Source: Promethearchaeota archaeon (lineage in GTDB: Archaea > Asgardarchaeota > Lokiarchaeia > Sigynarchaeales > SOKP01). Taken from it: a DNA stretch of 32,929 nucleotides. Shown here piece after piece: positions 8,903 through 23,468 of the stretch; position 1 is the first letter of the stretch, and the number at the start of each line of letters is the position of its first letter. Location: assembly GCA_019894735.1 (NCBI GenBank), contig JAGXOB010000017.1, positions 1 to 32,929 on the forward strand, in the 5' to 3' direction. Below the pieces are notes generated by a model. The model was not told the origin of the DNA, ran no database searches, and worked only from the letters and a program-made list of their open reading frames with translations. Made by a program: the position numbers and the translations under genes.

Positions 8903-9511
8903 TTAAAAGGAAAAAGGAAAAAAAACTAGTTGACTAATTATCCAAATTGACATAATAGTTATTTCTATATAGAAAAAACTTTTTCTTGACTTCATTAAAG
9001 ATATGATGCTACTTGCGATAACTAAGAACATTCCAATGTTTAATCCAAAATTACCAAAACCAGCTAATCGGTAACTCCAAAAAGGAGCGTACCTCATTAA
9101 AACAGGTTCTAGATCTGGCATGAGAGAAAACGAGTATTCAATTAATTTTACAATTAAAGTCATAGAAAGATAAATTAAAACAATGAAAATGAATATAAGT
9201 TCACCAAATAATTTCCTTTTTATATCTTCTAAACCAAATTCAATCGAAAGTATTAAAATTAAAATCGAAAATACAACTATTGCCATAGGTAGGAATATAT
9301 TTAGCATAAATGGTATATTGAGAAAAAAAGTTTGATTTAGTCCTTGGTAAAACCCCCAATACCACACATTGGATTGACTTGAGATAGAAATTCCTTCCAA
9401 CCCCCTAGAAATTGCGAATGGCGTGAAAAGTGAGATTATTATTAGAATTGCCCCTACCATCGGCAGTATTGCTATTTTGTTCTTTACAATCGTTTTAATT
9501 TTCTCAATCAT
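8903..9511 (-). CDS. Multipass membrane protein, last gene of the radical-SAM/peptide operon
   Basis: The 202-residue protein has about five hydrophobic segments: near residues 15-35, 65-88, 102-122, 150-172 and 180-200. An N-terminal cytosolic stretch is basic (EKIKTIVKNK). The first membrane segment is followed by an aromatic loop (NVWYWGFYQGLNQ). The fourth contains FWSYRLAGFGNFGLNIGMF, which resembles MWGYYIPSFGLIGLFLGVA in the 303-residue protein at 22298-23209; both share the pattern WxYxxxxFGxxGLxxG. Both genes directly follow a small YSTVK-tail peptide gene. The gap to the upstream peptide gene is 18 nt, so co-expression is very likely. The protein may be a partner, receptor or exporter for the peptides; nothing in it shows a known transporter family. 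Confidence 0.72.
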   Translation of the reverse strand: MIEKIKTIVKNKIAILPMVGAILIIISLFTPFAISRGLEGISISSQSNVWYWGFYQGLNQTFFLNIPFMLNIFLPMAIVVFSILILILSIEFGLEDIKRKLFGELIFIFIVLIYLSMTLIVKLIEYSFSLMPDLEPVLMRYAPFWSYRLAGFGNFGLNIGMFLVIASSIISLMKSRKSFFYIEITIMSIWIISQLVFFPFSF

Positions 9512-9529
9512 CTTTTCACATACATCTCT

Positions 9530-9799
9530 CTAACTAACTTTTAATTTCTTCCTAAAATCTTTATGTTTTACAGTCGAGTACATCGCACCAGTGGGGTACA
9601 CATTTTCGTTTATTTTTCGAGTTAGAAAAATAACAGAGTTAAACCATCCAAAAATAATTAGGAGCATGAAGAGAATTAGCAGAAATCTCCATAAATAAGC
9701 ATATTTACTATCATCAAAAATTAATATCTGAATTATCTCCTTTTTGGTTAGTCCTAAATCTTTACCTAGTTCAAAAAATTTTATTATATCAACAATCAT
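9530..9799 (-). CDS. Small membrane peptide of the YSTVK-tail family (copy 5 of the operon)
   Basis: This 89-residue protein has an amphipathic N-terminal helix (IIKFFELGKDLGLTKKEI, residues 5-22), a hydrophobic span at about 38-58, and the family tail YPTGAMYSTVKHKDF at about 68-82. There is no cysteine. Its N-terminus (MIxDIxKFxxxGKDLGL) is closer to the distant copy at 23223-23468 than to the four tandem copies at 11143-12309, and like that copy it is directly followed by a multipass membrane gene. The start codon is preceded by GAGGGAAG, a reasonable Shine-Dalgarno sequence. It lies 27 nt after the methyltransferase. Function is unknown; it is a candidate substrate or scaffold for the radical SAM enzyme. 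Confidence 0.78.
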   Translation of the reverse strand: MIVDIIKFFELGKDLGLTKKEIIQILIFDDSKYAYLWRFLLILFMLLIIFGWFNSVIFLTRKINENVYPTGAMYSTVKHKDFRKKLKVS

Positions 9800-9826
9800 A
9801 TTTCTTCCCTCGCGTTAGATATCTCT

Positions 9827-11146
9827 TTAATTAATTATTGGATCGAATTTTGGTCTATTTCCCTTCCTTTTTTTAATCCAATCGAATTCTTCTTGGATTT
9901 GCGATTTTAAATCTTGTTTATTTTTAACTTTGGTTATTTTAATTAGACGCAATGTCTTCTTATATACTTTTTCCGATTTATTGTATGATTCTAGCCGTGC
10001 TAAAGTTTTACTTAAATTCCAGAAAAATATATAATTATCTCGATTGAGTTTAATCGCACTTAAAAATAAATTATGAGCGTGAGTATAATTTTTTTGATGA
10101 AAAGATTTAATACCTAGATAAAATATGTTTAACGCTGTTCTCTCAATTAAAGCGACTGAGAATATTTTATTACTTAAATCTTTAGAGGTTTTGTTCAGAG
10201 TTTTAATTTTCCCTATGAGCTCTTCTCTGTTTTCTTTAGAATTTAGAATATTTTCTATTAATTTCCTAGCAAACGATTCTACAGAGAAAAAGACAATTCT
10301 CTGAGTTCCGGGATTTGTAGGCCCTTCAGTTATAGAATTAAAAAGTACATTCACAATTCTATGTTCAATTAAAAGCTCTGATAATTCTTTAATATTTAAA
10401 AAATCTCCCGGAGAAATATAGTTCTCATTCTCTATAACTAATAGTAAGGATTTAACGATTTCAGGCCATTTAAACAACAATTCGACAAATAATTCCTTAA
10501 TTAACTCTTTTTTTTTGGTTTGTCTTGACTCAAGAAGCTTCGAAGCAATGAAAATAACTAAATCTTCTTGCTCCTTAGTTAAGAAGGAATCTGTAAAATC
10601 AATTTGATTAGTTAAAAATAGTTCCTTACGGAGTTTAGAAATAATTTGAAAAACTTTAAAATCATCACCATTCCCCCTTTTGTAGCAATTAAACCTAACT
10701 GAAGGAATAGCTTCATGGTTGTAGAAACTGGAGGTTGTAATGTTCTCGAATCCAGTATTTTCCAATTGGTCGATTAAGAGGAACGAGGGAAAACATAATT
10801 TATGCTGCAATCCTTTATGAGGTATTCCAAAAAACCATCCCAAGATTTCTTTTTTCTGTTCTCTGTCCGCTTTTAGATAATGCTGACAACTTTTCTCGAG
10901 ATCAGGTGTTTCAATGATCAATTTCCCGTTAGGTTCTAATACTCTAAAAAATTCGCTAAGCGCGTAAATAGTTTCAAAAAAACTTAAGTGTTCAATAATA
11001 TGAATCGCTTTAATTTCTTCGCAACTATTGTCATCAAATTCAAGATTATAAGCTGACATCAGTCTATCAGCCACTAAATCTTCATACAAATCAACGTTAC
11101 AATAATCGGGATCGTATTTTTTACCGCAACCAATATTAAGCTTCAT
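9827..11146 (-). CDS. Class I SAM-dependent methyltransferase with helical C-terminal extension
   Basis: Residues 1 to about 165 of 439 form a methyltransferase-11 type domain: motif I LNIGCG at 3-8, the acidic strand-2 end NVDLYED, IHIIEHLSF near 47-55, and GKLIIETPDLEKS after strand 4. The remaining 270 residues are helical; near the C-terminus a TPR-like pair (SFHQKNYTHAHNLFLSAIKL and NYIFFWNLSKTLARL) can be seen. The ATG overlaps the stop codon of the preceding peptide gene by four bases (ATGA), so the two are translationally coupled. In this operon it may methylate a peptide, or a lipid or sugar. The extension could hold the substrate. Methyltransferases with this N-terminus are also common in surface-glycan clusters, which is the main alternative. 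Confidence 0.83.
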   Translation of the reverse strand: MKLNIGCGKKYDPDYCNVDLYEDLVADRLMSAYNLEFDDNSCEEIKAIHIIEHLSFFETIYALSEFFRVLEPNGKLIIETPDLEKSCQHYLKADREQKKEILGWFFGIPHKGLQHKLCFPSFLLIDQLENTGFENITTSSFYNHEAIPSVRFNCYKRGNGDDFKVFQIISKLRKELFLTNQIDFTDSFLTKEQEDLVIFIASKLLESRQTKKKELIKELFVELLFKWPEIVKSLLLVIENENYISPGDFLNIKELSELLIEHRIVNVLFNSITEGPTNPGTQRIVFFSVESFARKLIENILNSKENREELIGKIKTLNKTSKDLSNKIFSVALIERTALNIFYLGIKSFHQKNYTHAHNLFLSAIKLNRDNYIFFWNLSKTLARLESYNKSEKVYKKTLRLIKITKVKNKQDLKSQIQEEFDWIKKRKGNRPKFDPIIN

Positions 11147-11391
11147 TTCTTTTTCTCAAAGTCTTTTATTTTTACCGTTGAATATTTTGTTCCGGTTGGG
11201 TAAGTGTTGCTTATTGCCGATTCAACAATTAATACTATAAAATAACCGATAATTGAGAAAAATATAATTAAAATAATCAGTAATATGACTTTATTCTTAG
11301 TATTATCATAAAATAAGACTTTTTTTACTTCTTTTTTTGATAATCCTAGTTTTTTTCCGATTTGATATAGTTGGATCAGATCTTTCATCAT
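11143..11391 (-). CDS. Small membrane peptide of the YSTVK-tail family (copy 4)
   Basis: The frame is open from a GTG at 11406, but the ATG at 11391 is preferred: it aligns with the other copies (MMKDLIQL) and the local sequence GAGAAAATGATGAAAGA recurs at the starts of the neighbouring copies. This gives 82 residues: helix DLIQLYQIGKKLGLSKKEV, one strongly hydrophobic span, then tail NTYPTGTKYSTVKIKDFEKKK. There is no cysteine. The stop overlaps the methyltransferase start by 4 nt. It is one of four tandem copies downstream of the radical SAM gene. Function is unknown. Confidence 0.8.
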   Translation of the reverse strand: MMKDLIQLYQIGKKLGLSKKEVKKVLFYDNTKNKVILLIILIIFFSIIGYFIVLIVESAISNTYPTGTKYSTVKIKDFEKKK

Positions 11392-11461
11392 TTTCTCAGT
11401 AGTCACTCAAATTTTGAAGTTCTTAGTACTAGACTAAAAATTTATGACAAAATTGGTGAAT

Positions 11462-11734
11462 TTATTTTCTGGCATTGAAATCTTTTATTCTAACAGTAGA
11501 ATATAAAGTTCCCGATTGGTAAGTGTGATTTGATGGTAAATTTGGTGAATTTGGAGCCACAGAGAAACTAGTTAATATAATTAAAAAACCTATAAATGCG
11601 ATTATTATAATTAGCATAAATACCCCCAAATTTTTATCCTTAAAGTTGTTATAGGAAAATATCTTATTTATTTCTTTTTTAGCTAATCCCAATTCTCTTC
11701 CTATCTTATATAGTTGAATCAACTCTCCTTTCAT
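11462..11734 (-). CDS. Small membrane peptide of the YSTVK-tail family (copy 3)
   Basis: This 90-residue copy has helix ELIQLYKIGRELGLAKKEI, a hydrophobic span at about 36-56, and the tail HTYQSGTLYSTVRIKDF. It differs from its neighbours by a Pro/Asn/Ser-rich spacer (NSPNLPSN) between the membrane span and the tail, and by Arg in place of Lys in STVR. The spacer shows that distance from membrane to tail can vary while the tail itself is held constant. A clear Shine-Dalgarno sequence GGAGGG precedes the start by about 11 nt. Confidence 0.8.
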   Translation of the reverse strand: MKGELIQLYKIGRELGLAKKEINKIFSYNNFKDKNLGVFMLIIIIAFIGFLIILTSFSVAPNSPNLPSNHTYQSGTLYSTVRIKDFNARK

Positions 11735-11771
11735 TTTCTCAATAATCCCTCCTTCTTTGAATTTTAAACTT

Positions 11772-12020
11772 TCATTTTTTAGTTTTATAATCCTTTATTT
11801 TTACAGTAGAATAGTACGTTCCTGCTGCGTAAGTATTTCTGGAGGCTTCTATTCCTAATATTATTACTAGAACGCCAAAAAAAATAAATGATATTATCAA
11901 TAGGCTTTTGTATAATAAAGCATGTTTACTGTTGTTAAATATTAGTGCCTTATTTATTTCATTCTTACTTAATCCTAACTCTTTCCCAATTTTAAAGAGC
12001 TGAATTAAATCTTTCATCAT
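11772..12020 (-). CDS. Small membrane peptide of the YSTVK-tail family (copy 2)
   Basis: This 82-residue copy has helix DLIQLFKIGKELGLSKNEI, an LIFNNSKHA hinge, one hydrophobic span, and the tail NTYAAGTYYSTVKIKDYKTKK. In this copy the final aromatic is Tyr rather than Phe (KDY). There is no cysteine. The start is preceded by AAGGTGG and a run of ATTTAGAAA. Gaps to its neighbours are 37 nt on both sides, indicating one transcript. Confidence 0.8.
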   Translation of the reverse strand: MMKDLIQLFKIGKELGLSKNEINKALIFNNSKHALLYKSLLIISFIFFGVLVIILGIEASRNTYAAGTYYSTVKIKDYKTKK

Positions 12021-12057
12021 TTTCTAAATAACCACCTTTTATTTGGATTTTACAACT

Positions 12058-12309
12058 TTATTTCTTTTTAGCTTTGAAATCCTTAGTTTTTACCGTAGAA
12101 TATAATGTTCCCGCAGGATAGATATTTCTTGAGACTACAATTGCTATAAATATAATGATTATTCCTGAAAAGATAATAGCTATTATCATCAGTATTGTAT
12201 AGAGTATAGGGTTCTTTGTATTGTTAAATAGTAATACTTTACTAATTTCTTTCTTACTTAATCCTAATTCTTTACCTATTTTAACCAATTGAAAAAGATT
12301 TTCTAACAT
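12058..12309 (-). CDS. Small membrane peptide of the YSTVK-tail family (copy 1)
   Basis: This 83-residue copy is the first peptide after the radical SAM gene (33 nt away). It has helix NLFQLVKIGKELGLSKKEI, a short FNNTKN hinge, a hydrophobic span with almost only I, L, M, F and G, and the tail NIYPAGTLYSTVKTKDFKAKKK. A strong Shine-Dalgarno sequence GGAGGT precedes the ATG by about 10 nt, consistent with high expression. There is no cysteine, which argues against thioether chemistry within the tail. Confidence 0.8.
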   Translation of the reverse strand: MLENLFQLVKIGKELGLSKKEISKVLLFNNTKNPILYTILMIIAIIFSGIIIIFIAIVVSRNIYPAGTLYSTVKTKDFKAKKK

Positions 12310-12342
12310 CTTTAAGATACCTCCATTACTTTTTTTTTAAGA

Positions 12343-13446
12343 TTATTTGAAGACTACGTTATGAAACATATTTTTTATTACTGAAATTGTTGAATCCAAT
12401 TTCCCTTTAATAGGGTATTGGTTCGACGAAAATATTTTATTTTCTATGGCTCTTAAACAATAAGGCTCATCAAATTCTTTTATCGCATAAGCTGTCCCCA
12501 AGCATCCTCCCCGACATGATTTTACCACATCACAATTTACGCAATAACCATTTAACTGTCTTTGTTTTACCCTTAACTTCTCCAAAATCGTTTTTAAACT
12601 CTGCGTTCTAATATTACCTTCGATAAATTTATCTGGAAGGGTTAAACACCCTTTAATATTTCCGTTACTCTGAATACCTAAAACTGATATTCCTGCTTGA
12701 CACCCAACCCATGGATCCAGCCCTAAATTTGGTATGAACCTTGAAAAATGGCCGAAACAATGGGCACCAATAACTGGTAATCTTTTATAAGAATACTTTT
12801 TAACATTTATAGCAATGAATAACGCTACAGTGTAAAATTCTTCCCTAGAAATCGTTAACTCTCTTGGAAAGCGTCCGATAGGGATTGCTATCTGAATTTG
12901 CCAGGCAATATCTCGATCTAACAATATTTTTTTTATCTTATCTAGTTCGTTTAAATTCGTTTTACTTACTGCAGTGATAACACTGACAGGCAATTTTTCT
13001 TCTTTTAACCTATTAATCGCATTTATTGTTTTTTCAAACGCTCCTGGAATACCTCTAAGATAATCATGGACTTTTGCCGACCCTCCATCTAAACTAAGTG
13101 AAACGCAGTCAACTTTTAAGCGTTTTAATTTTTGAATGTTATCAATTAAAGTTAACCCGTTAGTAACGATAGATAATTCTAGTTTATACTTTTTAATTTC
13201 TTTCGCAATTTCATACCAGTCGTCTCTAATTAACGGTTCTCCGCCCATTAAAGCAACTCCTTTATAACCGCAATCACGAATATCCTTAACTAACTTTAAC
13301 GCTTCTTCGGTATTTAGTTCATCATCTCGAGTTTTTCCTGCTTTCGATCCACAATGGATACAATTACTATTACATTTTAGAGTAATTTCCCAAACAGCAC
13401 AAGAGGGCTTGATTCTCTGAGTTATAAGAGAAGTAATGCTTGGCAT
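12343..13446 (-). CDS. Radical SAM/SPASM domain enzyme, first gene of the peptide operon
   Basis: The 367-residue protein has the radical SAM cluster motif CNSNCIHC (C25, C29, C32), the GGEPL motif at 68-72, and TNG at 95-97. The C-terminal SPASM region is complete: C249 and C267 (GCQAG...GCL), then C302, C305, C311 and C315 (CVNCDVVKSCRGGC), and C330. Such enzymes carry one SAM-cleaving and two auxiliary 4Fe-4S clusters and usually modify ribosomal peptides (PqqE, anSME, sactipeptide or cyclophane maturases). It is encoded first on a transcript that goes on with four tandem small peptides, a methyltransferase, a fifth peptide and a membrane protein. There is no separate RRE-type leader-binding domain; the first 15 residues are too short. 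The substrate is most plausibly the adjacent peptides, by inference from position; heme or cofactor maturation is an alternative. Confidence 0.9.
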   Translation of the reverse strand: MPSITSLITQRIKPSCAVWEITLKCNSNCIHCGSKAGKTRDDELNTEEALKLVKDIRDCGYKGVALMGGEPLIRDDWYEIAKEIKKYKLELSIVTNGLTLIDNIQKLKRLKVDCVSLSLDGGSAKVHDYLRGIPGAFEKTINAINRLKEEKLPVSVITAVSKTNLNELDKIKKILLDRDIAWQIQIAIPIGRFPRELTISREEFYTVALFIAINVKKYSYKRLPVIGAHCFGHFSRFIPNLGLDPWVGCQAGISVLGIQSNGNIKGCLTLPDKFIEGNIRTQSLKTILEKLRVKQRQLNGYCVNCDVVKSCRGGCLGTAYAIKEFDEPYCLRAIENKIFSSNQYPIKGKLDSTISVIKNMFHNVVFK

Positions 13447-13645: not shown

Positions 13646-13710
13646 AAACATGACCTAACTATTAACTAATTAAACACTATCTTTTGCTATTATGTGATGG
13701 CGAATATAAG

Positions 13711-15411
13711 ATGAAATCGAAAACAAATTCAAAACTACCAATCATTTTAATCGCTTTAGGAATCCTTTTCGCTTTTTCTTCTATAATTAACGCTAACTCA
13801 AGATTAATCTCGAGCAATAAAAACAAAATTTTTGATTGTAGCGAAGAAATTTATTTTGATAATAAAAATCTACAACTTTCAGATGTTTCAGGAAAAATTC
13901 ATATCGATAATAATTGGTCTGCTGCTAAGAGTGTGGGAATTTGTACGGGGAATGGTATTTATTCCGACCCTTATGTTATAGAAGATTTGGTAATAGATAG
14001 TGGAGGTTCGGGAAATTGCATCTTGATCGAAAATTCCGACACTTACTTTAAGATTGAAAATTGCTCCGTTTACAATTCAGGAGAGAGTAATCTCTATGCA
14101 GGAATACGATTATCAAATGTAAACAATTCTCTGATAATCAACAATAATATCTCATCGAATCATTATGGGATATATTTAGGTGTGAGTAGTAATGGTACTA
14201 TTTCAGGAAATATAATGAATGAATGTGGATTACGATTATCCGGAAATCTTGAGATGTTAACTTCACTTATCATAGATACTACAAATTTAGTGAATGGAAA
14301 ACCATTATACTATTACTTCAATGAAATAGATTTAAGACCAAACAATTTTACAAACGCTGGGCAAGTAATTTTAGTTAATTGCACCGATTCACTAATATCA
14401 AACTTAAATACTTCAAATTGTCTCGCAGGAATTTCATTATATTATTGTAATAACAACAATATTACGGGAAATACCGCATATAACAACTATTGGGGGATTT
14501 ATTTATCACATAGTTATTATAACATCATTTCGGGAAATATTGCAAATAATAATAGTGATTCTGGGATACTGATACGATATAGTGATTACAACACCATCTC
14601 GGGAAACATCGCAAGTAATAACAGTGGATGGTATGGGATATATTTAACTTCAAGTGATTACAATATCCTTTCGGGAAACAACGCAAACAATAACAACAGG
14701 TATGGGATAACATTATATTCTAGCCATAACAACACCGTTTCGGGAAATACTGCAAATAATAACAGCGAAGGGTATGGGATATATTTAACTTCAAGTGATT
14801 ACAATATGGTTTCGGAAAATACCGCAAATTATAACGATTATAGTGGGATAGCACTACATCATAGCCATTACAACACCATTTCAGGAAACAACGCAAGTAG
14901 TAACAATGGAATTTCTGGGATATCTTTAGATCTTAGCTGTAACAATATGATTTTGGGTAATACCGCAGGGTACAATACCTATAATGGGATACGACTATAT
15001 AGAAGTGATTATAATGTCATTACGGGAAACATCGCAAATAACACCAATTGGGGGATAAGTTTATTTTATAGTGATTATAACACAATTTCGGAAAACATCG
15101 CACAAAATAAAATAATAGGAATTTATATAACTGGTAGTGATTATAATGATATCACGGGAAACAGCGCAAATAACAACATGTTTGGGATATGTTTATTATA
15201 TAGTGACTATAATACCGTTTCTGGAAATAATTTAGACGGTAATGACAACTGTATCTTTGAATACGATTGCCAAGGAAACATTTTTAACGATAATGGTTCT
15301 TGTACTTATGGTCAAGCAGATGAATTAATTCCCGGATATAACCTATTCTTTCTACTTGGCGTTTCATCCGTTATACCAATTGTTCTTAGTAAAAAAATAA
15401 AAAAATCTTAA
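13711..15411 (+). CDS. NosD-type right-handed parallel beta-helix surface protein with C-terminal anchor
   Basis: The ATG at 13711 is preferred to a TTG nine codons upstream because it starts directly with a signal peptide (MKSKTNSKLPIILIALGIL and a hydrophobic stretch to ASSIINANS-like residues). Of the 566 residues, about 240-510 consist of a run of about a dozen 22-24-residue rungs with the pattern N-x-I-S-G-N-x-A-x-N-N-x-x-G-I-x-L-x-x-S-x-Y, a textbook NosD/periplasmic copper-binding-like beta-helix. The end has IPGYNLFFLLGV, a hydrophobic stretch and KKIKKS, a tripartite PGY-membrane-basic tail like archaeal surface-sorting signals. The protein should be exported and held at the cell surface. 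Two rungs are near-identical at DNA level. Ligand is unknown; carbohydrate or S-layer association is more likely than copper. Confidence 0.88.
   Translation: MKSKTNSKLPIILIALGILFAFSSIINANSRLISSNKNKIFDCSEEIYFDNKNLQLSDVSGKIHIDNNWSAAKSVGICTGNGIYSDPYVIEDLVIDSGGSGNCILIENSDTYFKIENCSVYNSGESNLYAGIRLSNVNNSLIINNNISSNHYGIYLGVSSNGTISGNIMNECGLRLSGNLEMLTSLIIDTTNLVNGKPLYYYFNEIDLRPNNFTNAGQVILVNCTDSLISNLNTSNCLAGISLYYCNNNNITGNTAYNNYWGIYLSHSYYNIISGNIANNNSDSGILIRYSDYNTISGNIASNNSGWYGIYLTSSDYNILSGNNANNNNRYGITLYSSHNNTVSGNTANNNSEGYGIYLTSSDYNMVSENTANYNDYSGIALHHSHYNTISGNNASSNNGISGISLDLSCNNMILGNTAGYNTYNGIRLYRSDYNVITGNIANNTNWGISLFYSDYNTISENIAQNKIIGIYITGSDYNDITGNSANNNMFGICLLYSDYNTVSGNNLDGNDNCIFEYDCQGNIFNDNGSCTYGQADELIPGYNLFFLLGVSSVIPIVLSKKIKKS
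14440..15240 (+). repeat. Tandem rung repeats within the beta-helix gene
   Basis: Degenerate units of about 66-75 bp encode the repeated 'YNxISGNxAxNN' rungs. The most recent duplication is visible at about 14635 and 14777, where GGGATATATTTAACTTCAAG and the following GATTACAATAT are identical. The repeats explain several spurious reverse-strand reading frames in this region and may cause length variation between strains. Confidence 0.75.
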
Positions 15412-22297: not shown

Positions 22298-23209
22298 TTA
22301 GTTTAACTCTTCATCCGGTTTTTTGCGCACATAAAGAAATAATAGAAATATAAAGAATAAAATTGCTGGGAGATAAATAGAAATAAAGAATCTAGTTAAA
22401 AACGACAAATATAATGCCATTAGCGAAGTAATGTTATAAAAGTAAGAAATTATAAGAAAAAAAGAAGAAAAATAAATATCTTGAGAAAAAAGACTCGACA
22501 GAACGCAAAAAATTATAATGAATCCAATAAAACGGTTTGAGAATGATTCATAAATAAAACTATATACGAAGAATATTAATATAATTGTTATAAAACTTGT
22601 AAGAAAATTGGCTAGATCAAAATAACAAGAACTGACAAGATAAAGGGAGACCGACGCAAGGATAATTAAAATTTCGTATAGTTTTACCTTCGTAAATTTT
22701 ATCGAAAAAAGTACCCCTAAGGAAATCATCGCCACACCGAGAAAAAGACCAATTAATCCAAAACTTGGAATGTAATAACCCCACATATCAGCCGTAAACC
22801 AACCTACTGTAATTGTATGAATGTGTAGATAAGGTAAAAAAATTAGCAAATTAGTCGTTAAAAATAAAATAGTAGTAGAATAGGTAAAGATTTGTTTTTC
22901 ATATATCTCCTTGTTAATTTTTCTTTTCTGTGCTAAATAAGTGTTCATGATAACCATGATTGGGCAAATGAGTATCAGGAGATTTATAAAGATATTAAAT
23001 CCGTATAAAAATATAGAGTAATCCGAAAGTGCTTCATGCGAAGAAAAACTCCAAATCCAGTGTATTGGGGGCAAACTTTGCACAAAGCTTTTAGGAGAAG
23101 CTAAAGGAAAAAAAAAAGATAAAAATACGAAAATCGAGCCTGAATACATCAATATATTAATGTTATTACCCAAAATCGGCAATTCATACTTTTTCATTTG
23201 CTCGTACAT
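22298..23209 (-). CDS. Multipass membrane protein paired with a YSTVK-tail peptide
   Basis: The 303-residue protein has about eight hydrophobic segments and very short loops. Segment 1 (GSIFVFLSFFFPLA) is followed by an aromatic loop (PIHWIWSFSSHE); a later segment, MWGYYIPSFGLIGLFLG, shares the pattern WxYxxxxFGxxGLxxG with the 202-residue protein at 8903-9511. Both also start with a short basic tail and a span ending in F(F)PxA / FTPFA. The second half has extra spans that the shorter protein lacks. The C-terminus is charged (VRKKPDEELN) and likely cytosolic. It follows the peptide gene at 23223 by 13 nt. The repetition of the pair suggests the two gene products work together; the mechanism is unknown. 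Confidence 0.7.
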   Translation of the reverse strand: MYEQMKKYELPILGNNINILMYSGSIFVFLSFFFPLASPKSFVQSLPPIHWIWSFSSHEALSDYSIFLYGFNIFINLLILICPIMVIMNTYLAQKRKINKEIYEKQIFTYSTTILFLTTNLLIFLPYLHIHTITVGWFTADMWGYYIPSFGLIGLFLGVAMISLGVLFSIKFTKVKLYEILIILASVSLYLVSSCYFDLANFLTSFITIILIFFVYSFIYESFSNRFIGFIIIFCVLSSLFSQDIYFSSFFLIISYFYNITSLMALYLSFLTRFFISIYLPAILFFIFLLFLYVRKKPDEELN

Positions 23210-23222
23210 GTCATCCTATCCA

Positions 23223-23468
23223 TTATTTTTTGAAGTCTTTTATCTTTACAGTTGAATACAAAGTACCTCTAGTATAAGTATTTTGAACGATAGTTATGTT
23301 TAGCACAGTCAAAGAAATGAACCATATTAAGAAAATAATAACCATCATTGTGATGAATACAAATTTCAGAAGAAATCTTTTTTCAAACAATAAGGACGAA
23401 TTAATTTCTTTTCTACTCAATCCTAAGTCTTTTCCTATTTGATAAAATTTAAAAATATCATCAATCAT
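23223..23468 (-). CDS. Small membrane peptide of the YSTVK-tail family (distal copy 6)
   Basis: This 81-residue copy lies 10 kb away from the operon, outside the reach of its transcript. It has helix DIFKFYQIGKDLGLSRKEI, one hydrophobic span, and tail NTYTRGTLYSTVKIKDFKK, matching the tandem copies at almost every tail position. The N-terminus is closest to copy 5 (MIxDIxKFxxxGKDLGL). It has no cysteine and is immediately followed by a membrane-protein gene, like copy 5. No radical SAM gene lies next to it, so it would be modified in trans if at all. Confidence 0.8.
   Translation of the reverse strand: MIDDIFKFYQIGKDLGLSRKEINSSLLFEKRFLLKFVFITMMVIIFLIWFISLTVLNITIVQNTYTRGTLYSTVKIKDFKK

Follow-up and report, generated by a model that had tools for sequence, protein, structure and literature searches.

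A membrane-peptide operon of Asgard archaea as a candidate protein-tail editing system related to PlpX-type spliceases

In a 32,929-nt stretch of DNA from a lokiarchaeal Promethearchaeota archaeon (contig JAGXOB010000017.1 of assembly GCA_019894735.1; hereafter the window), a radical S-adenosylmethionine (rSAM)/SPASM enzyme, five small membrane peptides and a methyltransferase are encoded in one tight operon, which raises the question of whether the two enzymes act on the peptides and, if so, where and by which reaction. An initial annotation, made from the sequence alone, had proposed that both enzymes modify an invariant C-terminal tail of the peptides. Our analysis indicates that this tail is very probably the target of the system, since the gene neighbourhood is conserved, a conserved core is carried by proteins that otherwise differ, and none of the genomes that encode a peptide is clearly without the enzyme. 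In a fuller reading, to which we give a probability of roughly one half, the rSAM enzyme would edit the tail at a tyrosine, likely by a splicease-like excision of tyramine, and the methyltransferase would act on the tail or on its product.

The operon occupies positions 8903–13446 on the minus strand and comprises eight genes, in the order rSAM/SPASM enzyme, four peptides, methyltransferase, peptide and membrane protein. All reading frames are open, and the gaps along the operon are exactly 33, 37, 37, 55, -4, 27 and 18 nt, in agreement with the tight same-strand arrangement first described. The rSAM gene (12343–13446, 367 aa) is followed by those of membrane peptides 1 (12058–12309, 83 aa, tail YPAGTLYSTVKTKDF), 2 (11772–12020, 82 aa, tail YAAGTYYSTVKIKDY), 3 (11462–11734, 90 aa, tail YQSGTLYSTVRIKDF) and 4 (11143–11406, 87 aa, GTG start, tail YPTGTKYSTVKIKDF), the last overlapping by 4 nt the methyltransferase gene (9827–11146, 439 aa); peptide 5 (9530–9799, 89 aa, tail YPTGAMYSTVKHKDF) and, immediately 3' of it, a multi-span membrane protein of 202 aa (8903–9511) complete the operon. 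The count of five peptides in the initial annotation is right for the operon; a sixth peptide, 10 kb away on the same strand (23223–23468, 81 aa, tail YTRGTLYSTVKIKDF), had been overlooked.

Peptides 1–5 share a leader-like N-terminal helix (IGKELGLSKKEI), a single span and a C-terminal tail. Their description as cysteine-less, one-span peptides with a conserved tail was borne out: Cys is absent from all five, and each has one hydrophobic stretch, with a best 19-residue Kyte-Doolittle mean of 2.6 to 3.3. The tail consensus of the window peptides is Y-x-x-G-x-x-Y-S-T-V-K-x-K-D-F, and a degenerate DNA pattern of it, with one mismatch allowed, gave six matches in the window vs a maximum of 0 across 100 shuffles, the sixth match being peptide 6. 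Pairwise comparison of the six tails, each of 15 codons, yielded 225 codon pairs, 78 identical, 86 synonymous and 61 residue-changing, and outside the tail, where only the first 61 codons of peptides 1 and 2 were compared, 16 codons were identical, 18 synonymous and 27 changing. These counts indicate old copies of the tail, with better preservation there than in the remainder of the peptide.

A profile of the peptides retrieved 400 proteins at an E-value of 1e-3, with only the 7973 candidates sharing most words being scored, and a search with the rSAM enzyme retrieved 956 proteins at 1e-60; 120 proteins were listed for each. For the gene neighbourhoods, we considered the best 80 of 368 places found in genome contigs by a scan with the rSAM alignment: 43 Asgard loci (27 of Loki type and 16 of Thor), 13 from Thermoplasmatota or alike, 12 from Elusimicrobiota, 4 from Desulfobacterota/Nitrospirota, 3 from Nanohaloarchaeota or alike, 4 from Gastranaerophilales or alike and 1 from an Alphaproteobacterium. 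The initial annotation had suggested following the peptides and their neighbourhood across Asgard genomes with a hidden Markov model (HMM), and by this means a peptide was found beside the rSAM gene in 39 of the 43 Asgard loci; in the other four (L020, L025, L065 and L079), the contig ends within the rSAM gene. HMM matches to Thor peptides are weak (best E-value per locus from 1e-7 to 0.008), yet the tail motif is present, and direct reading identified peptides in 15 of the 16 Thor loci. A methyltransferase of the same family (at least 50 bits, same strand and within 4 kb, by a model built from members in these loci) occurs in 36 of the 43 Asgard loci, the contig ending less than 2.5 kb downstream of the rSAM gene in the other seven. 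It is also found in 10/13 Thermoplasmatota, 11/12 Elusimicrobiota, 3/3 Nanohaloarchaeota and 1/4 Desulfobacterota/Nitrospirota loci, but in 0/4 Gastranaerophilales and 0/1 Alphaproteobacteria, which brings the total to 61 of the 80. The gene set spans Asgard archaea and recurs in Thermoplasmatota and Elusimicrobiota; it is not a local oddity.

Association at the level of whole genomes leads in the same direction. Among 195 genomes of the Asgard phylum, the rSAM enzyme was found in 45 (E 1e-60) and the peptide in 26 (E 1e-6). Widespread peptides in genomes devoid of the enzyme, an outcome that the initial annotation had named as contrary to its proposal, were not found: the enzyme is present in 24 of the 26 peptide-bearing genomes, and in the two others (G058 and G105) the peptide contig begins inside the methyltransferase gene or ends at the peptide, the usual place of the rSAM gene being unassembled. 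In the reverse direction the association is less complete, 21 of 45 rSAM-bearing genomes having no peptide match; here the search is insensitive, as its profile was built on Loki sequences, is weak on Thor and scored no more than 28 candidates in each genome. A search with the exact DNA pattern of the tail covered 25 genomes, 15 with and 10 without the rSAM enzyme; this is no census, as Loki tails that do not fit exactly are missed. It matched in nine genomes, 8/15 with the enzyme and 1/10 without, and 15 of the 18 matches lie on the rSAM contig and adjoin the rSAM gene. We also considered the tail as a tag on other proteins and rejected it: the three off-contig matches (in G046, G152 and G026, that in G152 being antisense to an oxidoreductase) were taken as chance, because a backward control pattern gave two matches in the same genomes.

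In the neighbourhoods, we noticed that a leader and a C-terminal core persist across clades, while what lies between them varies. The search pattern for the core required a Tyr, then one of a small set of residues, and D/N paired with F/L/Y. The tail is mostly Y-x-x-G-T-x-Y-S-[TS]-[VI]-[KR]-x-K-D-F in Loki, Y-x-P-G-[TS]-x-Y-[GA]-[ST]-I-x-P-x-D-F in Thor, x-Y-G-T-[IV]-S-I-[KN]-D-F in Thermoplasmatota and YPCG-[TS]-[RK]-Y-[YF]-T-V-x-x-x-D-F in Elusimicrobiota and Geobacter, with Tyr-Gly in 21 of 28 distinct Thor tails and 21 of 22 distinct Thermoplasmatota tails. Read by eye, the part that separates leader from core is a span in Asgard peptides; it lacks any hydrophobic segment in the Thermoplasmatota peptides, which are 60 residues long, and in Elusimicrobiota it resembles a signal sequence, frequently with a lipobox-like Cys; in several bacteria a Kunitz domain takes this place. 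The latter is above the Pfam cut-off in tail proteins of Geobacter (L050, 7412–7960, 1.7e-13), Syntrophus (L058, 7553–7978, 1e-13) and Smithella (L056, 7586–7987, 1.3e-04) and falls just under the cut-off in that of a Nitrospiraceae (L057, 7559–7987); the cores are KYGGVSIRDF in L058, KYGGVGLRDF in L056 and KYGAVGIRDF in L057. In Smithella, a Kunitz protein with no tail (L056, 5482–5850, 2.9e-13) is encoded upstream of the tail protein.

Other neighbourhoods show further forms. Thermoplasmatota cassettes (L036, L039, L042, L044–L047, L049, L052 and L060) mostly combine short tail peptides and the methyltransferase with a second rSAM enzyme of the same family, and a gene of about 461 aa is found nearby in ten loci, one member of which, when scanned, matched an AMP-binding enzyme just below the cut-off (1.5e-06); the second rSAM enzyme and the ~461-aa gene are elaborations of the system in this phylum. 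Proteins of Gastranaerophilales type stand beside an rSAM relative with no methyltransferase (L073, 3803–4725; L076, 7399–7983; L077, 7527–7967; L078, 3227–3592), with repeats of an RYAGP motif in L073, L077 and L078 and, for L076, only part of the sequence read. Loci of Nanohaloarchaeota type encode between one and five similar proteins in an array, with a leader and hydrophobic stretches (L062, 6103–7983; L069, 3739–4465; L071, 7606–7977), which terminate in YGVY, YNVY and similar. A recognised core was not found in four loci: L064 and L072, from Elusimicrobia, encode leader-lipobox proteins with no visible tail, and L054 and L080 have no recognised substrate beside the enzyme.

With respect to the chemistry, the rSAM enzyme offers the main clue. 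Its assignment in the initial annotation was confirmed by Pfam matches to the radical SAM (PF04055, 7e-28) and SPASM (PF13186, 9.3e-05) domains, the CxxxCxxC motif being formed by C25, C29 and C32, as well as by the ortholog alignment, the tree and the signature residues described below. The best NCBIfam models are TIGR04103 (204.2 bits) and then TIGR03913 (169.8 bits, far below the cut-off of 591.75), and the same two models lead, in either order, for ten rSAM relatives, with TIGR04103 scores of 162 to 236 bits. Pairwise alignment of the window enzyme gives 36% identity across 338 aa with a cyanobacterial enzyme of TIGR04103, and 32% across 347 aa with a TIGR03913 enzyme. In a quick tree of 81 rows, with AhbD-type and a few paralogous enzymes as outgroup, its own family has a Shimodaira-Hasegawa-like approximate likelihood ratio (SH-aLRT) support of 96, and the clade that joins it to TIGR04103 and TIGR03913, apart from the AhbD-type rows, one of 98; TIGR04103 and TIGR03913 join at 100, the TIGR03913 row being a flagged long branch, and three very long rows intervene. 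Twelve signature residues (L23, G33, S34, A36, G37, R40, W182, Q183, Q185, G232, W246 and G266) are each conserved in at least 90% of 55 rows of the own family and of 8 TIGR04103 rows, and in at most 31% of 13 outgroup rows; all are present in the single TIGR03913 row, and in four gut-type rows all hold except G37 (1/4). Among solved structures, SkfB is the closest by sequence profile, within the rSAM core only (8.5e-20), and the predicted structure of the enzyme is mediocre (predicted local distance difference test, pLDDT, of 71.7), its fold matches not separating the candidate reactions.

We take TIGR04103 to correspond to the InterPro entry of PlpX. In the phylum of L076, a locus of Gastranaerophilales type, 13 of 244 genomes have a TIGR04103 match that exceeds the cut-off, and eight TIGR04103 loci were retrieved, all over the cut-off, with precursors that have cores of PLYGV or MYGV type; the two precursors scanned are Nif11 proteins by Pfam (7e-15 and 1.7e-14). 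This Nif11 leader and Tyr-Gly core form the arrangement reported for PlpX, which is reported to excise tyramine at Xaa-Tyr-Gly (PMC10533398, PMC11002830). At E 1e-150, a single genome out of 398 from the L080 phylum had a TIGR03913 match; at E 1e-100, the phylum of Geobacter (L050) yielded none in 148 genomes, nor did the controls. The one TIGR03913 locus found (L092, 2–1222) encodes two proteins, one of which, when scanned, matched DUF1842/1843, with PLYA within Y-x(10)-GDL. This PLYA resembles the PLYG site of spliceotides, and the TIGR03913 neighbours and spliceotides may share a chemistry. We place the window enzyme, on the evidence of its sequence, as a sister of the PlpX-type spliceases and not as a member, because it lies below the TIGR04103 cut-off and the window peptides have neither the Tyr-Gly site nor the leader. 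The initial view that no family of this form had been described is not supported as worded, given these sister families and the resemblance of the tail to an Xaa-Tyr-small site.

The likeness to the PlpXY splicease comprises an rSAM/SPASM enzyme of the same clade with the same signature residues, and a substrate Tyr after a variable residue, with Gly following in most Thor and Thermoplasmatota relatives. By contrast with the PlpX system, the window enzyme is shorter, each peptide has a single C-terminal core and a membrane span, and a methyltransferase is conserved in the gene set. As for PlpY, a truncated RiPP recognition element (RRE; RiPP, ribosomally synthesized and post-translationally modified peptide), neither an RRE match nor an extra small gene was found in the operon, but Pfam was also blank on the small gene after two cyanobacterial enzymes and would therefore overlook a gene of this type. 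The TIGR03913 system (rad_SAM_trio, GDL motif peptide-associated maturase) has, besides its related enzyme, a PLYA followed further on by an acidic-hydrophobic pair (GDL there, KDF in the window), but differs in its DUF1842/1843 proteins, which have no match in the window operon, and in showing no methyltransferase within the 3 kb of its locus that were read. Short precursor genes beside a modifying enzyme, conserved across genomes, are shared with RiPP systems in general.

The methyltransferase is of class I, with its catalytic domain at residues 1–159, followed by an all-helical region that ends in a tetratricopeptide repeat (TPR)-like domain at about residues 335–429. Methyltransf_11 is just above and TPR_2 just below the Pfam cut-off, the AlphaFold2 model has a mean pLDDT of 93.2, and the gene is a conserved partner of the system. 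Fold matches include C-, N- and S-methyltransferases as well as the RiPP enzymes LahSb and CgnL, and do not name its target. For its role, aminopyruvatide offers an analogy, and no more than that: the keto-forming metalloenzyme ApyHI is reported to be paired with the methyltransferase ApyS, which C-methylates next to the ketone (PMC11117315), though ApyHI is an MNIO (multinuclear non-heme iron-dependent oxidative) enzyme that acts on a C-terminal Asp and not an rSAM enzyme of the window family.

Taken together, the peptides may be substrates of a protein-tail editing system, in which the N-terminal helix would be the recognition leader, the span would serve as a membrane anchor for the product, and the core would be the C-terminal tail. 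The rSAM enzyme would excise tyramine at the central tail Tyr, with a loss of 135.0757 Da, a reaction that we propose because of the TIGR04103 kinship, the shared signature residues and the Xaa-Tyr-small pattern; the methyltransferase would next act on the tail or on the new keto group, and its TPR-like end could hold the peptide. With regard to the initial proposal, both its parts, that the two enzymes belong with the peptides and that the tail is their target, are strongly supported by the neighbourhoods across phyla. The conserved set of genes, the core that the peptides share and the position of the rSAM enzyme next to the splicease family are observed; the modification itself, its atom, the order of the steps, the methyltransferase target and the role of the product we infer.

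Several observations weigh against this reading. The score of the window enzyme is far below the TIGR04103 cut-off of 725 bits, and the quick tree has a limited outgroup whose rows are not on one side of any branch. The central Tyr is followed by Ser in all six window peptides, where PlpX has Xaa-Tyr-Gly, and in 47 of 51 distinct Loki tails, and by Tyr or Phe in seven of eight distinct bacterial tails, as in Elusimicrobiota; this speaks against excision, as does the lack of a recognisable partner gene. All that the recognised substrates have in common is a Tyr, which in most cases precedes a small residue, and its invariance was built into the search pattern. The HMM matches in L069 and L071 have no D-F core, and an rSAM relative also occurs in loci that lack the methyltransferase or have no recognised substrate. 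For the eight genes of the operon, Pfam and NCBIfam gave no match to a Nif11 leader or recognisable RRE; nor was a peptidase or exporter recognised there that would remove the leader, as in RiPP systems in general, although it could be encoded elsewhere. More specifically, a leader of Nif11 or nitrile-hydratase type had no Pfam match in the six window peptides and no NCBIfam match in the five of the operon.

A different reaction, at this Tyr or at residues next to it, namely a C-C or ether crosslink (cyclophane or Tyr-Tyr), a side-chain cleavage or an oxidation, is the alternative that we take most seriously, albeit tentatively; it would fit the same enzyme and the same conserved tail. For one of its forms, the three-residue cyclophane with a crosslink to the beta carbon at position +2, the window peptides have a Thr at +2, which would allow it, but several substrates (L056, L058, L073 and L077) carry Gly there, so this seems unlikely as the common reaction.

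It is improbable, in our view, that the rSAM enzyme modifies the leader, the middle or another protein, and that the tail is conserved for binding a partner, such as a membrane protein or the TPR-like domain. Binding of C-terminal peptides is common for TPR domains, and the fold matches of the methyltransferase include Tah1 in complex with an Hsp90 peptide. Peptide 6, as peptide 5, precedes a multi-span membrane protein (22298–23209, minus strand, 303 aa), which starts 13 nt after it and is weakly similar to the 202-aa protein of the operon (22% identity, E 9e-06, in that single comparison), so that the two form a duplicated peptide/membrane-protein pair; all eight members of this membrane-protein cluster, from the loci and the window, lie directly 3' of a peptide. 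However, the membrane protein is present in only 7 of 81 sources, some of them contig-cut, whereas the tail is far more widespread, and span and middle differ between clades while the core persists. Finally, although membrane complexes often contain small proteins with one span, it is very improbable that the peptides are ordinary small membrane subunits merely sharing an operon with the two enzymes, given the rSAM enzyme in 24/26 peptide-bearing genomes, with both exceptions at contig ends, and given that, in other phyla, proteins of soluble, lipoprotein-like or Kunitz type encoded beside a relative of the enzyme carry a similar core.

Returning to tail editing by the rSAM enzyme and methyltransferase, no account of the archaeal system was found in the literature by title or abstract, subscription papers being thinly covered, and Scott et al. 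2022 (Chem) may overlap part of the family. New here are the membrane-anchored single-core substrates, the conserved TPR-like methyltransferase and the occurrence in both archaea and bacteria. The known cases of backbone editing are bacterial peptides; tyramine excision from Asgard tails, if true, would extend it to archaeal membrane proteins and provide new splice tags. The system offers a defined substrate and enzyme set for testing, and it suggests what protein families so far lacking a dedicated Pfam or NCBIfam model might do. More doubtful is a cross-domain form of backbone editing, in Asgard archaea and in lineages of at least four further phyla, archaeal and bacterial, in which this PlpX-sister enzyme would splice tyramine from membrane-anchored or exported tails and the TPR-like methyltransferase, where present, would alkylate the enolisable carbon beside the ketone and lock its configuration; a stable methylated alpha-keto-beta-amino acid would then be displayed at the membrane, and the Kunitz-domain substrates in Geobacter, Syntrophus and Smithella would hint that part of the lineages use the system in a role directed at proteases.

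Next to the operon, a divergent neighbour of the rSAM gene (13684–15411, plus strand) encodes a long protein with repeated units of the N-x-x-x-G-N type and a terminal hydrophobic segment, presumably a NosD-like beta helix.

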